A stretch of 64,000 nt of DNA. It comes from Brevibacillus laterosporus. Its GTDB lineage: Bacteria > Bacillota > Bacilli > Brevibacillales > Brevibacillaceae. The notes beneath the pieces were generated by a model. The model searched no databases. It was not told where the DNA came from and was given only the letters and a program-made list of their open reading frames with translations. Location: contig CP033464.1 of NCBI GenBank assembly GCA_007833815.1, positions 2,117,501 to 2,181,500 of the forward strand, in the 5' to 3' direction. This document shows positions 28,176 through 33,175 of this stretch, in pieces (position 1 is the stretch's first letter; every line of letters starts with the position of its first letter). The translations under genes were made by a program, and so were the position numbers.

Positions 28176-28192
28176 TAGTACATTTTTGCTGG

Positions 28193-28220
28193 AAAGATCG
28201 GGATTCTCCGGTCTTTTTTT
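28193..28220 (+). terminator. Terminator of the mannitol operon
   Basis: AAAGATCGG pairs with CCGGTCTTT (one G-U) and is followed by a long T-run. Confidence 0.85.
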
Positions 28221-28245: not shown

Positions 28246-28274
28246 TTGACAAAAAAGTAAAATAAATATAATGT
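28246..28274 (+). promoter_or_regulatory. Near-consensus sigma-A promoter of the radical SAM/ATP-grasp/MFS operon
   Basis: TTGACA, a 17-base AT-rich spacer, then TAATGT. It ends 73 bases before the first ATG. No operator-like palindrome is obvious, so the operon may be fairly constitutive or controlled by a factor I cannot see. Confidence 0.75.
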
Positions 28275-28347
28275 TTAAATCAATATTGTATGATTTTCAT
28301 GCTGTATAAAAGTATGGACAAACCAATTAATTAAGGGAGGTAACAAA

Positions 28348-29484
28348 ATGACAAGAATGACTGAAACCTTCATCTCTGAACGAGAAAGAGAGATGCAGAA
28401 GCAAGTAATGCAAAAGTTCCGCTCCAAAATTAGTCCTTCACTAGCAAAGATCGTGAAACAATCGCCAGGTGTCGCCAAACAGTTTGTACCAAGTCCCTAT
28501 GAAGCATTAGAATATGGCACAGAAAAGCCATTTGAAGAAGGAAAAAATAATAAAGGAATTTATGGACTTGAAAGAATATATGAAGATCGAGCAGTATTAA
28601 CACCTTATTTTGAATGTTCTGCCTATTGCAGGTACTGTTTTAAGAAAACCCGTACACTAGCGGGTGAAGCCAAGCGAATGTCAGATGAAAATATTGCAGA
28701 TGCTATCTCCTATATTAGCAATGATGAACGGATTAAAACAGTACTAATTACAGGAGGAGACCCATTCCTAGATGTGTCATTACTGCATAAAGTTTTACAG
28801 CAAATTAAAGAAATTGATCATGTGCGAAACGTTCGGGTAGGTACCAGAAATATTTTATTTGCACCTGAAAAGATTACGGACGAAACAGCAGAAATGTTAA
28901 CGGAATTTAATCAAATTAACTACGATAATCCACGTTTATCTAAGAACCTTTCAATCGGTTTATCACTTAACCATCCAGATGAACTTACCCCAGAAGTTAT
29001 ACGAGCTGCCCAAAAAATTATTTCCCGAGGTATTACAATAAGAGGTCAAATTGTCTTAATGAAAGATATTAATGATAATACCAAAACCATGAGAGAATTA
29101 ATAGAATTGTTCCTTTGTAATGGGATTGTGCCTTATTATCTCTTCCACTGTATGGCCGTAGTAGGAGCTAAGCATTTCCGTACATCTGTTCAGAAGGGTA
29201 TTGATATCATACGAGAATTATCTGCTTTCTCTGGTAGCATTGCCCCTCATTATGTTTATGTAACCCCTATTGGTAAGCATCGAGTTGGTACGAATTCTCA
29301 GCTTGATTATGTAGAAATTGACGGTCAACAGTATATTCGTTCCACTACACCTTATAAAGCTGCGGACTTCTTGCAATTCTCTGATAACAAGATGTTGCCA
29401 CCTCTCCATGAAATAAATGAAAACGGATACATCGTTTCTCATTACCTTGATGGAGACGATAAGCCAATGGAGGTATTGGTATGA
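28348..29484 (+). CDS. KamA-like radical SAM aminomutase-family enzyme
   Basis: A 378-aa member of the lysine 2,3-aminomutase (KamA) family. The radical SAM cluster motif is CSAYCRYC (Cys90, Cys94, Cys97), with SAM-binding LITGGDPFL following. The segment PYYLFHC...GAKHFRTSVQKGI is the KamA equivalent of PYYIYQCD...HFRTPVSKGI. Lys310 in TPIGK is the likely pyridoxal phosphate lysine. Two Asp residues that hold the lysine side chain in KamA appear replaced (about Met269 and Val305/Thr306), so a different substrate is likely. It is shorter than typical KamA and lacks much of the C-terminal extension. GGGAGG precedes ATG 28348. It overlaps the next gene by four bases. Confidence 0.85.
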   Translation: MTRMTETFISEREREMQKQVMQKFRSKISPSLAKIVKQSPGVAKQFVPSPYEALEYGTEKPFEEGKNNKGIYGLERIYEDRAVLTPYFECSAYCRYCFKKTRTLAGEAKRMSDENIADAISYISNDERIKTVLITGGDPFLDVSLLHKVLQQIKEIDHVRNVRVGTRNILFAPEKITDETAEMLTEFNQINYDNPRLSKNLSIGLSLNHPDELTPEVIRAAQKIISRGITIRGQIVLMKDINDNTKTMRELIELFLCNGIVPYYLFHCMAVVGAKHFRTSVQKGIDIIRELSAFSGSIAPHYVYVTPIGKHRVGTNSQLDYVEIDGQQYIRSTTPYKAADFLQFSDNKMLPPLHEINENGYIVSHYLDGDDKPMEVLV

Positions 29485-30845
29485 CTCAATTAATCGTATT
29501 TATTGAAAATCTTTCGGTACTTCCTGCTATAAATAGAGCTGTCCAAGCTAATAAAATGGGTTATAAGTGCGCCCTTATTTCCCGTCCTTTAGTTGCTCAT
29601 GAAAGGTCTAGAATCTCTCAATTAGAAGTAGAAAATGAAATTGATTCTTTATTTGTAGAAATCATCGAGACGAATCACTTTGGCTATGAGGAATTAGAAA
29701 AAAAGATGTGCTCACTTGAAGAATCATACAACGTTTCTGCTGTTTTTAGCATTTTGGGGTTATTTTCAAGTGACGGTCTACTTGGGGCTGATGTAGCCAA
29801 GCTAGCGGAAAAAAGAGGTCTAGCTTCCCAGGATTCCGATGCTTTGTATCGTACAAATAATAAATATCTCATGCGTGATGCGCTAAGACATGCTGGTGTG
29901 ATAACCGTTGATTATGGAATAGCTGTAGATATTGAATCAGCAGTCACTCATGCTGAACGTATTGGCTATCCAGTAATTTTAAAACCGATTAATGGAGTAG
30001 CTTCTCATTTAATTCTAAAATCCAACAATCAACAGGAGATAAGGGACAATTTTACATATGCCCTTCAAAAATTACCTGACTGTAATTATTCAAATCTTTA
30101 TGCATCCTGTCACACCTATGCAACAAGGGATGGGAATCTAATTGATTTTGATCCCATGGCTTGCATGCTAGTTGAGAAATATATGAATGGTCGGGAAGCC
30201 AGCGTAGAGATGGTTATTACAGAAAATGAAATCGTTCCTCTGCTTGTTCATGACAAGGTAAAGGTAACGGAAGAAAAACAAGTTTTCTATGAGCATCTAT
30301 TAGTCGTTCCTCCTCTTCGTTTTACACAGAAAGAAGTAGAAGAACTTAAAAATTATGCAATAGAAGCTGTGCGTGCTGTAGGCTTAAAAAATTCATTATC
30401 TCACGTTGAATTACGTTACGATGAAAAATTAGGACCGCAAGTATTAGAGATCAATCCACGTATAGGTGGCATGTGTGTCAAGGATAGCTTGGAAACAATG
30501 CTTGGGTTTGATTCTGTGAGTGCCCAGTTGGAGATTGTTTTAGGAAAATTTGAATTACCTACTCAGTTGAATCAGGAAGAAACACCTCACGCCATGTTTA
30601 CCTTATATCCAAAAGAAAGCGGGATTCTACGAGCGGTAAACGGTATAGAAGAGCTGGAAAAAATCCCTGGTGTGTTGAGAGTGACACAAGTTTACCCGGT
30701 AGGAACAGAGGTAAGAGGAGACGAGGAAGAAGTGTTTTTAGTGATGTGCTGGATGCGTGGAGAAAGCTATGAACACATTGAACAAGTGTATCAGAAGGCG
30801 TGCGATCTAGTCACATTCGAAATTGAGAAAATGGTCAATGTGTAG
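29481..30845 (+). CDS. ATP-grasp carboxylate-amine ligase
   Basis: A 454-aa ligase that would activate a carboxylate with ATP and join it to an amine, as in BacD-type dipeptide ligases or biotin-carboxylase-fold enzymes. A Rossmann-like pre-ATP-grasp region occupies residues ~1-110. The ATP-grasp part shows YPVILKPINGVASHLI (nucleotide Lys), VEKYMNGREASVEMV (adenine-side Glu) and ELRYDEKLGPQVLEINPRIGG (metal-binding Glu and Asn). The tail has a typical small C-terminal domain. The substrate pair is unknown; the upstream aminomutase-like enzyme suggests a beta-amino acid as one partner. The start sits in ATGA with the previous stop. Confidence 0.85.
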   Translation: MTQLIVFIENLSVLPAINRAVQANKMGYKCALISRPLVAHERSRISQLEVENEIDSLFVEIIETNHFGYEELEKKMCSLEESYNVSAVFSILGLFSSDGLLGADVAKLAEKRGLASQDSDALYRTNNKYLMRDALRHAGVITVDYGIAVDIESAVTHAERIGYPVILKPINGVASHLILKSNNQQEIRDNFTYALQKLPDCNYSNLYASCHTYATRDGNLIDFDPMACMLVEKYMNGREASVEMVITENEIVPLLVHDKVKVTEEKQVFYEHLLVVPPLRFTQKEVEELKNYAIEAVRAVGLKNSLSHVELRYDEKLGPQVLEINPRIGGMCVKDSLETMLGFDSVSAQLEIVLGKFELPTQLNQEETPHAMFTLYPKESGILRAVNGIEELEKIPGVLRVTQVYPVGTEVRGDEEEVFLVMCWMRGESYEHIEQVYQKACDLVTFEIEKMVNV

Positions 30846-30856
30846 GAGGAAAGAAG

Positions 30857-32101
30857 ATGACGACAACTATTCCAGCAGGACAGAATAATAAAATGCGTTA
30901 TATTTACCAGTTGATTGCTGGAAGAACCATTTCAGATATAGGCAGTTATTTAGATATGATTGCACTAAATCTGTATGTGTACTTATTAACGGGCAGTGCT
31001 GTTTACATGGGATTATTTATGGCTGTCCGTTTAATAGGAAGCTTTTTAGCAGGTTTCTATTCTGGAATGCTAGCTGATAAATTTAACCGCAAAAAGTTAA
31101 TGATTATTAGTGACGTCGTTCGGTTTGGTCTCCTATTTTCCCTTGTCATTACTCCACAAGAGTATCATTTTTATATGTTATATTTTGTGACTTTTGGTAT
31201 GGGAATGTTCAGCTCCATGTTTAATGTGTCAATGCAATCAAGTATTCCAATGCTTGTTTCGCCAGAAAATAGAGTAAGAGCCAATGCTTTATTACAATCG
31301 TGGCAAGCAATGGCGATGGTTGTCGGAATGCTATCGAGTGGGATTCTAATTAATTTGTTAAGTTATCAAAGTATCTTTTTCATTGACTCCCTTACCTACT
31401 TACTTTCAGCCGTTAACTTGTTTAGTCTGCCTATCAAAACGAATGAAACCCGGACGCAACCAGATCAAAAAACATCGCTTTTTTCGGAGTTTTCGTTTAT
31501 CTATCGTTATTTACGTGTAATTCCCGTTCTATTATCTTTAATGACGATTCGATTATTTGATACCTTTGGTTCCGCAGCACACAACGTAGGGATTCCGATT
31601 TACTCTTCTATGATAAAGCCAGACAATCCCTCCATGATTATGGGCTTTATTTGGGGGATATGGGCAATCGGTAATCTAGTCGGCTCTCGTTTTATGAGTA
31701 AGCATTCAAAAAATGCAAAGGAATCATTCACAGAAAAAGCATTTGGTATCTCTACGATTTTAATGTCTTTCTTTTTCATTTTGCTGTTTGCTTTTTCTTC
31801 AACGTATCTTCTACTTATATGCGCTTTCTTTGCAGGAATATCTGATGGGATCTCAGCTATTTGCTATAACTCGCGTTTACAGCAAGTATCTGATGATAAG
31901 CGTGGACGTGTCTTTGGAGTATCCTCCACGTTGCAAACAATTGGATTTGCATTCGGTATGTTGATTTGTTCACCTTTATTTGAAATCATGCTGCCTATTT
32001 GGGTAGTAGGTATCCTACATGGTGTACCTATGATCATGGCGCTTATTTTCACGATTTACTTCTATCGGAAATGGAAGGTACCAAAAGGATTAGCGTCATA
32101 A
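30857..32101 (+). CDS. MFS transporter (exporter-like)
   Basis: A 414-aa major facilitator protein with about twelve helices. The segment YSGMLADKFNRKKLMIISDVVRF is the loop between helices 2 and 3 (MFS signature). Its overall form is that of MFS_3/BacE-like drug and metabolite exporters. It follows the ligase gene by 11 bases with AGGAGG before its ATG. As last gene of a biosynthetic-looking operon it most likely exports the product or gives self-protection. A strong terminator follows. Confidence 0.88.
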   Translation: MTTTIPAGQNNKMRYIYQLIAGRTISDIGSYLDMIALNLYVYLLTGSAVYMGLFMAVRLIGSFLAGFYSGMLADKFNRKKLMIISDVVRFGLLFSLVITPQEYHFYMLYFVTFGMGMFSSMFNVSMQSSIPMLVSPENRVRANALLQSWQAMAMVVGMLSSGILINLLSYQSIFFIDSLTYLLSAVNLFSLPIKTNETRTQPDQKTSLFSEFSFIYRYLRVIPVLLSLMTIRLFDTFGSAAHNVGIPIYSSMIKPDNPSMIMGFIWGIWAIGNLVGSRFMSKHSKNAKESFTEKAFGISTILMSFFFILLFAFSSTYLLLICAFFAGISDGISAICYNSRLQQVSDDKRGRVFGVSSTLQTIGFAFGMLICSPLFEIMLPIWVVGILHGVPMIMALIFTIYFYRKWKVPKGLAS

Positions 32102-32132
32102 ATGATTCCTCAAACATGTAGTGTATGAGCTT

Positions 32133-32162
32133 AGCACCGCTATATGAAGCGGTGCTTTTTTA
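32133..32162 (+). terminator. Terminator of the radical SAM/ATP-grasp/MFS operon
   Basis: AGCACCGC and GCGGTGCT enclose an eight-base loop and are followed by TTTTTTAT. Confidence 0.85.
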
Positions 32163-32257: not shown

Positions 32258-33175
32258 CTACCCATTCATTTCTTTGATCATATTTGTTACAAGACGCTGT
32301 GACTCGACACCTTCCCAACCATCAACAAGAGGTTTTTGATCCCCGTTCAAACAGTCCATAAAGTGTTGAACGGCTCCTTCAAATCCTCTCCGTTTCAAAA
32401 TGGAGTCCCAAGGATGAGACATTACCTGCTGTGTATATCCTTCACTTTCTACCTCCATCATCTCTAGATTTTGGATTCGAGTGATCCCATCGATAGAGAC
32501 AATTTCCAATTGCTCCTTATTGGAACCGGACTGGCGATGCATGGCTGTCGTAATGGAATAGGTACCTGCTCCCAATTGATGCTGGGCATGAAGGAGTTGC
32601 CCCTTTTCAGTAAGCGCAATAGTGCCATTTCTTATAGAGGAGGCTCCTAGCCAACGAGCTGTATCGATCAAATGAAGATAGTCATCCAATAAAGTAAATG
32701 CAGCAGAATGACCAGCATGAACTCCATGTTTACGATGTTTCTCAAAACGAATCCATGCAGTGGTTCCCATCTTTGCTTTTGCTTCTATATAAAGAGGTGC
32801 AAATCTTCTATTAAAACCAACCATTAGCTTACGGTTATGTTTTTCACTTAGCTCAGCTAGGATTTCAGCCTGTTCCACGGTTTCAGCTAAAGGTTTGTCG
32901 ACAAAAACATCGACCCCGGATTTCAATGCATGCTGGACAATCTCAAAATGTGTGGAAGTGGAGCTATGTACAAATACGGCGTCACAGGCTTGGATGAGAG
33001 TATTCATATCAGAGTAGGAATTCATTCGATAGTGCTTACAAATTTCCTCACGTTTAGTTGCTGTGGGAGAGTAGGCACCTATTAATTTCCAATTCTTTTC
33101 GATTGCTACTAATGGTAAATATGCTTTTTGGGCGATGGAGCCCAGTCCAATTACTCCGATTCTAGGTTGAAGCAT
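32258..33175 (-). CDS. Gfo/Idh/MocA-family NAD(P)-dependent oxidoreductase
   Basis: A 305-aa cytoplasmic oxidoreductase. The N-terminal Rossmann fold starts IGVIGLGSIAQKAYLPL, and the family motif DKPLAETVEQAE (EKP-type, here DKP) lies near residues 93-104, with a C-terminal alpha/beta domain after residue ~125. Family members act on sugars, inositols or related cyclic polyols. Substrate unknown. AAAAGGAGGGG precedes ATG 33175. It faces the KamA-like operon and is separated by terminators, so I do not count it in that operon. Confidence 0.88.
   Translation of the reverse strand: MLQPRIGVIGLGSIAQKAYLPLVAIEKNWKLIGAYSPTATKREEICKHYRMNSYSDMNTLIQACDAVFVHSSTSTHFEIVQHALKSGVDVFVDKPLAETVEQAEILAELSEKHNRKLMVGFNRRFAPLYIEAKAKMGTTAWIRFEKHRKHGVHAGHSAAFTLLDDYLHLIDTARWLGASSIRNGTIALTEKGQLLHAQHQLGAGTYSITTAMHRQSGSNKEQLEIVSIDGITRIQNLEMMEVESEGYTQQVMSHPWDSILKRRGFEGAVQHFMDCLNGDQKPLVDGWEGVESQRLVTNMIKEMNG

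Follow-up and report, generated by a model that had tools for sequence, protein, structure and literature searches.

Three adjoining genes in a 64,000-nucleotide stretch of the Brevibacillus laterosporus genome (contig CP033464.1; hereafter the window) encode a radical S-adenosylmethionine (SAM) protein of the KamA superfamily, an ATP-grasp ligase homologue and a transporter of the major facilitator superfamily (MFS), and they are a conserved, separable unit in distant bacteria. The sequences make it reasonably likely that this cassette consists of a pyridoxal phosphate (PLP)/radical-SAM aminomutase, a ligase and an exporter, which together would make a secreted dipeptide containing a beta-amino acid. 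The first-pass annotation had described the genes as joined by an ATGA overlap (kamA/ligase) and by a gap of 11 intergenic bases (ligase/MFS), and had assigned the products to the KamA radical-SAM, ATP-grasp ligase and MFS families; the coordinates of all three genes, which lie on the plus strand, were confirmed, and domain models agreed with the assignments.

Co-occurrence and distribution of the three genes

Gene content was compared in 21 loci, one per genome, which were chosen for holding the KamA clade and were scored with three profiles partly built from the same loci (G005 and L003, apparently one genome, were counted once). The ligase clade adjoins the KamA gene on the same strand in 19 of these loci, and the order KamA, ligase, MFS is found in 16, one of which lies on a contig that ends inside the MFS gene. 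A lack of conserved co-occurrence, which the first-pass annotation had regarded as a finding that would speak against its proposal, was thus not what this comparison revealed. Of 399 genomes drawn from the window's class, 14 have the KamA clade; 13 of these also have the ligase clade, which was not found in the remaining 385 (Fisher p 1.6e-23, for genomes that are not independent, the 14 falling in 8 of 145 genera). The ligase and KamA counts are taken to refer to one and the same draw, and only the best four to five first-look ligase candidates per genome were scored; the clade ligase reached at least 595 bits in its 13 genomes, and the next best ATP-grasp protein 148 bits. Moreover, KamA and ligase distances over 14 loci were strongly correlated (Mantel r 0.90, p 0.0001), a correlation to which shared host descent contributes.

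The 21 hosts comprise 14 Bacilli genomes and seven others, and records from four bacterial phyla contain both KamA and the ligase. The Archangium genome comes from an isolate. The deltaproteobacterial, Sandaracinus and Pseudolabrys records bear titles of metagenome-assembled genomes (MAGs), and the Diapherotrites and Simkania records resemble environmental assemblies; misbinning in the MAG and environmental records is possible. The KamA clade is rare: besides the 14 genomes of the class draw, it was found in one of 398 genomes drawn from the window's phylum (the window's own genome), in two of 193 from the phylum to which Archangium belongs (Archangium and one other) and in one of 289 from the class of Pseudolabrys (that same Pseudolabrys genome). 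Identity to the window's KamA protein amounts to 53-75% in hosts that possess the ligase or in genome G144, and to 44% in the Diapherotrites archaeon, while the homologue of a named B. laterosporus genome is 96% identical. All three operon genes are under purifying selection, because dN/dS values against three relatives are low (kamA 0.031-0.040, ligase 0.080-0.094, MFS 0.035-0.039).

The KamA-clade protein and its substrate pocket

The Radical_SAM/KamA family assignment was upheld by domain models, and by its sequence the protein is a distant branch of the KamA superfamily, scoring below the general KamA model TIGR00238 (184.6 bits, cut-off 199.2). Its nearest models are aminomutases, yet every NCBIfam cut-off was missed: 179.4 bits against 525.4 for lysine 2,3-aminomutase (TIGR03820), 199 against 650 for glutamate 2,3-aminomutase (TIGR04368), 183.7 against 600 for arginine 2,3-aminomutase (TIGR04468) and 136 against 369 for EpmB. 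In the tree, 16 cassette proteins form one side of a long branch with a support of 100/100 (12 outgroup rows), and in 11 whole genomes the clade members scored 558-672 bits and every other KamA match 193 or less. The clade is sharply separated and apparently uncharacterised. Lysine 2,3-aminomutase 2a5h was the only Protein Data Bank (PDB) sequence matched at E 0.001, and it was also the best fold match of the predicted structure (mean pLDDT 86.6; TM 0.71, E 4.5e-24, with an rmsd of 12 for the complete chain).

The earlier description of the protein as a KamA-type enzyme with intact catalytic motifs holds for the cofactor motifs. In 20 clade rows C90-C94-C97 (CxxxCxxC), G136-G137-D138, H267, C268, M269, K310 and R312 are invariant, and the CxxxCxxC, GGD and GK lysine of the clade align with those of AblA and of the glutamate and arginine aminomutases. 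K310 aligns with the PLP (GK) lysine in all 12 outgroup KamA proteins (AblA, glutamate, arginine and other types), a residue that we take to be Lys337 of lysine 2,3-aminomutase, and K310 is the probable Schiff-base lysine. The same description does not extend to a likeness to lysine 2,3-aminomutase, either in the cut-offs given above or in the pocket. In that enzyme Asp293 and Asp330 presumably hold the lysine side chain. The position of Asp293 is occupied in the clade by M269, and that of Asp330 by V305, which is nearly invariant in the 20 rows and replaced by Cys in the Simkania row. In the outgroups the two positions are Asp/Asp (two AblA rows), Lys/Asn (three glutamate-type rows) and Asp/Thr (two arginine-type rows). 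Since Met and Val replace the lysine-binding aspartates, lysine is an improbable substrate, and it was set aside on these residues together with the model scores. We infer that the clade would be an aminomutase acting on a substrate with an uncharged side chain. A natural 2,3-aminomutase of a nonpolar amino acid (e.g. leucine, valine, methionine or phenylalanine), giving rise to an unknown family of secreted beta-amino-acid dipeptides, is a narrower proposal that can be put forward only tentatively; to our knowledge, nonpolar-substrate radical-SAM 2,3-aminomutases are known only from engineered variants or disputed reports.

The ligase and the transporter

The window ligase carries the ATP-grasp_4 (PF13535) and LAL_C2 (PF18603) domains, both over cut-off. 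All 17 rows compared have K128, K168, E310, E323, N325 and R327, residues that we assume to bind ATP and Mg. The predicted fold (mean pLDDT 93.1) has L-amino-acid ligases as its top matches, with 3vot and the YwfE/BacD entries 3wnz, 3vmm and 3wo1 within ranks 1-5, and RizA 4wd3 at rank 7, and the score against the BacD equivalog (40.6 bits) lay far under its cut-off of 850. Met331 of the ligase aligns pairwise with BacD Trp332 (Ala in entry 3wo1), which presumably restricts the first substrate of BacD to alanine; a first substrate larger than alanine is therefore plausible here. Outside the B. laterosporus group, identity to the window ligase is 33-53%, second copies included, and the ligase is less conserved and diverges faster than KamA. 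This suggests that one constant beta-amino acid may be joined to partners that vary by lineage. One or two further clade ligases lie 3' of the MFS gene in three of the four Tumebacillus-related loci (L037:12095-14885, L046:12054-13418, L039:5585-6949), and the three extra copies placed in the ligase tree cluster together. In Pseudolabrys, an open reading frame (ORF) for a JmjC-type oxygenase (L011:10758-11519) overlaps the end of the ligase gene.

The transporter scored 146.4 bits against MFS_1 (cut-off 33.4). Its clade was found at 500-704 bits in 16 of 23 genomes, the next best score being 300, and a search at E 1e-60 failed to find it in two same-genus genomes without KamA. KamA-family enzymes of other organisms make beta-lysine and beta-glutamate, which serve as solutes, and by analogy the cassette could produce an intracellular beta-amino-acid solute acting as a stress protectant, with the MFS protein as an importer or an unrelated pump. 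We hold this to be very improbable, as the curated models nearest to the MFS protein, the H+ antiporter 2A0121 and EntS, are exporters or antiporters (both under cut-off), and the transporter clade travels with the cassette.

The proposed pathway and its alternatives

In the pathway that we favour, the KamA-clade enzyme, with SAM, a [4Fe-4S] cluster and PLP on K310, would shift the alpha-amino group to C3, as expected from its family, converting an uncharged and probably nonpolar amino acid into a beta-amino acid. The ATP-grasp ligase would activate one carboxylate as an acyl phosphate and join a second amino acid by an amide bond, so that the beta-amino acid becomes part of a dipeptide. The MFS protein would then export the dipeptide as an antimetabolite or a signal. 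Such a cassette would be self-contained, and it would spread or be lost as a unit.

Several observations weigh against this pathway, and some of them speak for alternatives. The first concerns the active site. In an alignment with AblA only and in the pairwise PDB alignment, K310 lies two positions off the PLP lysine and R312 stands there instead; the register thus depends on the alignment, the gap settling on K310 only when BlsG, glutamate-type and other rows are included. The register of the broader alignment is preferred because the arginine 2,3-aminomutase BlsG and rhizobial proteins have the same shorter loop. Each of the 12 outgroup rows has Arg at position 134 (lysine-enzyme numbering), where nearly all clade rows have Lys, and carboxylate binding may therefore differ from that of the standard site. 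The clade also has inserts and a C-terminal stretch of its own, and it lacks the N-terminal region of AblA. The change at position 134 and these structural differences would fit an alternative in which the ligase acts first and KamA then carries out its rearrangement on the dipeptide's N-terminal residue, or in which some other radical chemistry, such as epimerisation or desaturation, takes place on a PLP-bound amino acid or dipeptide. We consider this unlikely: the aminomutase cofactor motifs have been retained, and KamA is kept in two genomes without the ligase clade, where its substrate would be independent of the ligase.

These two genomes themselves count against the full pathway. In G144 the KamA gene is followed directly by the MFS gene, and no clade ligase was found in its genome; in the Diapherotrites archaeon KamA stands alone (L014:7992-9113), and neither a clade ligase nor a clade MFS gene was found in its genome. 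The ligase is therefore not always needed. The arrangement in G144 is what would be expected if the free beta-amino acid were the exported product and the ligase made only a side product or a masked form. That alternative appears quite improbable, given that the ligase adjoins KamA in nearly all of the loci compared and that its clade was not found without KamA in the 399 class genomes. An MFS gene is also missing from the Alicyclobacillus, Sandaracinus and Pseudolabrys loci, and a search of these genomes at E 1e-60 did not find one elsewhere. In a comparison of 20 neighbourhoods (blastp 1e-8; ORF picking took shadow ORFs in GC-rich loci), hisS/hisZ and a hexapeptide acyltransferase type were the only neighbour families common to different host families; the surroundings thus offer no clue to the product in the form of a gene for resistance, a peptidase or a regulator. 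No riboswitch or T-box that would name an amino acid was found: 14 short loci gave 0 matches, and in six other loci four RNA matches were obtained, namely three tRNAs and one SAM riboswitch (L011, about 3 kb from KamA on the opposite strand). In the archaeal record, one TAA was noted inside the matched KamA stretch, and the ORF used for the comparison is open.

Comparison with known systems

The cassette KamA protein has the CxxxCxxC and GGD motifs and the PLP lysine in common with the 2,3-aminomutases of lysine, glutamate and arginine (AblA, GAM, BlsG), and its predicted fold matches that of the lysine enzyme; it differs from them in pocket residues and in clade, and it scores far under each equivalog cut-off. 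A related arrangement of genes is annotated in a blasticidin S-type cluster of Kitasatospora sp. NBC_00039, in which blsG (arginine 2,3-aminomutase), a DegT aminotransferase gene, an ATP-dependent carboxylate-amine ligase gene and an MFS gene stand in a row. Like the cassette, this cluster has a KamA-family aminomutase, a LAL_C2-bearing ligase and an MFS gene close by, and BlsG shares the shorter PLP-lysine loop. However, these genes belong to a larger nucleoside cluster, Asp293 is retained in BlsG, which falls outside the cassette clade in the tree, the ligase matches that of the window over 78 residues only (32%, E 2e-4), and the match between the MFS proteins is not significant (E 0.07). 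No mention of BlsG or BlsI was found in passages of PMC5572114.

In bacilysin biosynthesis, ligation by BacD is followed by export through BacE (PMC3684760); the ATP-grasp ligase fold is shared with the cassette, and ligation followed by export is also what is proposed for the cassette, but the modified amino acid is supplied by BacABC and not by a KamA enzyme. The same paper describes the Hil operon of Pantoea and others, with the dioxygenases HilA/B, the ligase HilD and the MFS protein HilE, for which a dipeptide antibiotic is proposed (PMC3684760). By that description it is likewise a small operon combining amino-acid modification, a ligase and an MFS protein, with the difference that dioxygenases carry out the modification and there is no aminomutase.

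The design of modification, LAL-type ligation and MFS export is therefore not new, with precedents in bacilysin, the proposed Hil product and the blasticidin type. The novelty lies in a KamA clade whose pocket residues are altered, in the minimal three-gene form and in the spread of the cassette. The earlier suggestion of an undescribed system stands to this extent: no named pathway of just these three proteins, and no description of this three-gene combination, is among the matches listed in the open-licence literature, a scope outside which most subscription papers fall.

Operon layout and genomic site

The features of the operon are collected in Table 1. The promoter, described earlier as near-consensus, has exact hexamers, and its spacer is slightly short. 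It is the only exact match of this kind within the window, and shuffled controls gave a mean of 0.02 per shuffle (one match each in 2 of 100 shuffles). Three relatives have the same -35 hexamer at the same spacing, with TATAAG as their -10 hexamer. A generic promoter scan, restricted to spacers of 16-18 bases, did not list this promoter, and promoter-like sites in that scan of the window were not in excess (12 against 17.9 in shuffles). The strong terminator of the earlier description was also recovered.

Table 1. Features of the three-gene operon and its borders in the window
Feature	Position	Strand	Description
Terminator-like hairpin, 3' of the upstream mtl genes	28191..28218	+	sets the operon apart from the mtl genes
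Promoter TTGACA (28246-28251) and TATAAT (28267-28272)	28246..28272	+	exact hexamers, 15-base spacer
Ribosome-binding site GGGAGG	28335..28340	+	read from sequence
KamA-clade radical SAM gene	28348-29484	+	ORF, 378 aa; PLP-type aminomutase homologue
ATP-grasp L-amino-acid-ligase homologue gene	29481-30845	+	ORF, 454 aa; LAL_C2 domain
MFS transporter gene	30857-32101	+	ORF, 414 aa; MFS_1 domain
Intrinsic terminator of the operon	32133..32156	+	9-pair stem, 6 GC pairs, T tail

The syntenic site in the congeneric genome G001 contains no cassette: about 265 bp separate mtlA-mtlR-mtlF-mtlD from the pepF-pepD genes that come next. Gain or loss of the cassette must therefore have affected all three genes together. 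The window also holds a Gfo/Idh/MocA-type (YceM-like) oxidoreductase gene (32258-33175, minus strand) between the operon and pepF. ORF picking did not return this gene at the corresponding place in three relatives (L003, L047, L048), and it is absent from the G001 stretch.

Near the cassette, hisZ is found in three Tumebacillus-related loci and in G060, where neighbouring genes are shared as well, and hisS in Kroppenstedtia. A link to histidine was considered and is not favoured: four of these five genes were scanned, one hisS and three hisZ exceeded curated cut-offs, and nothing about them seems out of the ordinary. A hexapeptide acetyltransferase homologue (NF058585), which we take to be like B. 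subtilis YvoF, lies on the far side of the cassette in two Tumebacillus-related loci, and the place of the cassette is therefore read as an insertion site.

Carriage on phages or plasmids was set aside, as no match of at least 60% identity was obtained in 99 plasmid and 19 phage records; the best 30 of the 99 plasmid rows and 10 of the 19 phage rows were 29-35% identical. On three of three Rhizobium plasmids, an ATP-grasp gene precedes a KamA gene of another clade (L084:5227-7834, L089:3226-5834, L090:3230-5834), and the one ligase of these that was scanned has a LAL_C2 domain. This is apparently a second, independent KamA-ligase pairing. In one Bradyrhizobium relative no annotated ligase adjoins the KamA gene. 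The Thioflavicoccus plasmid pTHIMO01 has a KamA gene convergent with an annotated ATP-grasp enzyme (L083:6691-12172), next to SbnA-type diaminopropionate and diaminobutyrate transaminase genes.

Biological significance

Summarizing, the cassette would represent a compact pathway of two enzymes and a pump, small enough to be expressed whole. Very different bacteria have acquired or lost it in one piece, and its product is therefore probably of value across many settings. If the proposed pathway is true, these bacteria would possess an aminomutase acting on a new class of substrates and would secrete beta-amino-acid dipeptides of a new family, and both could serve chemistry and the discovery of antimetabolites.

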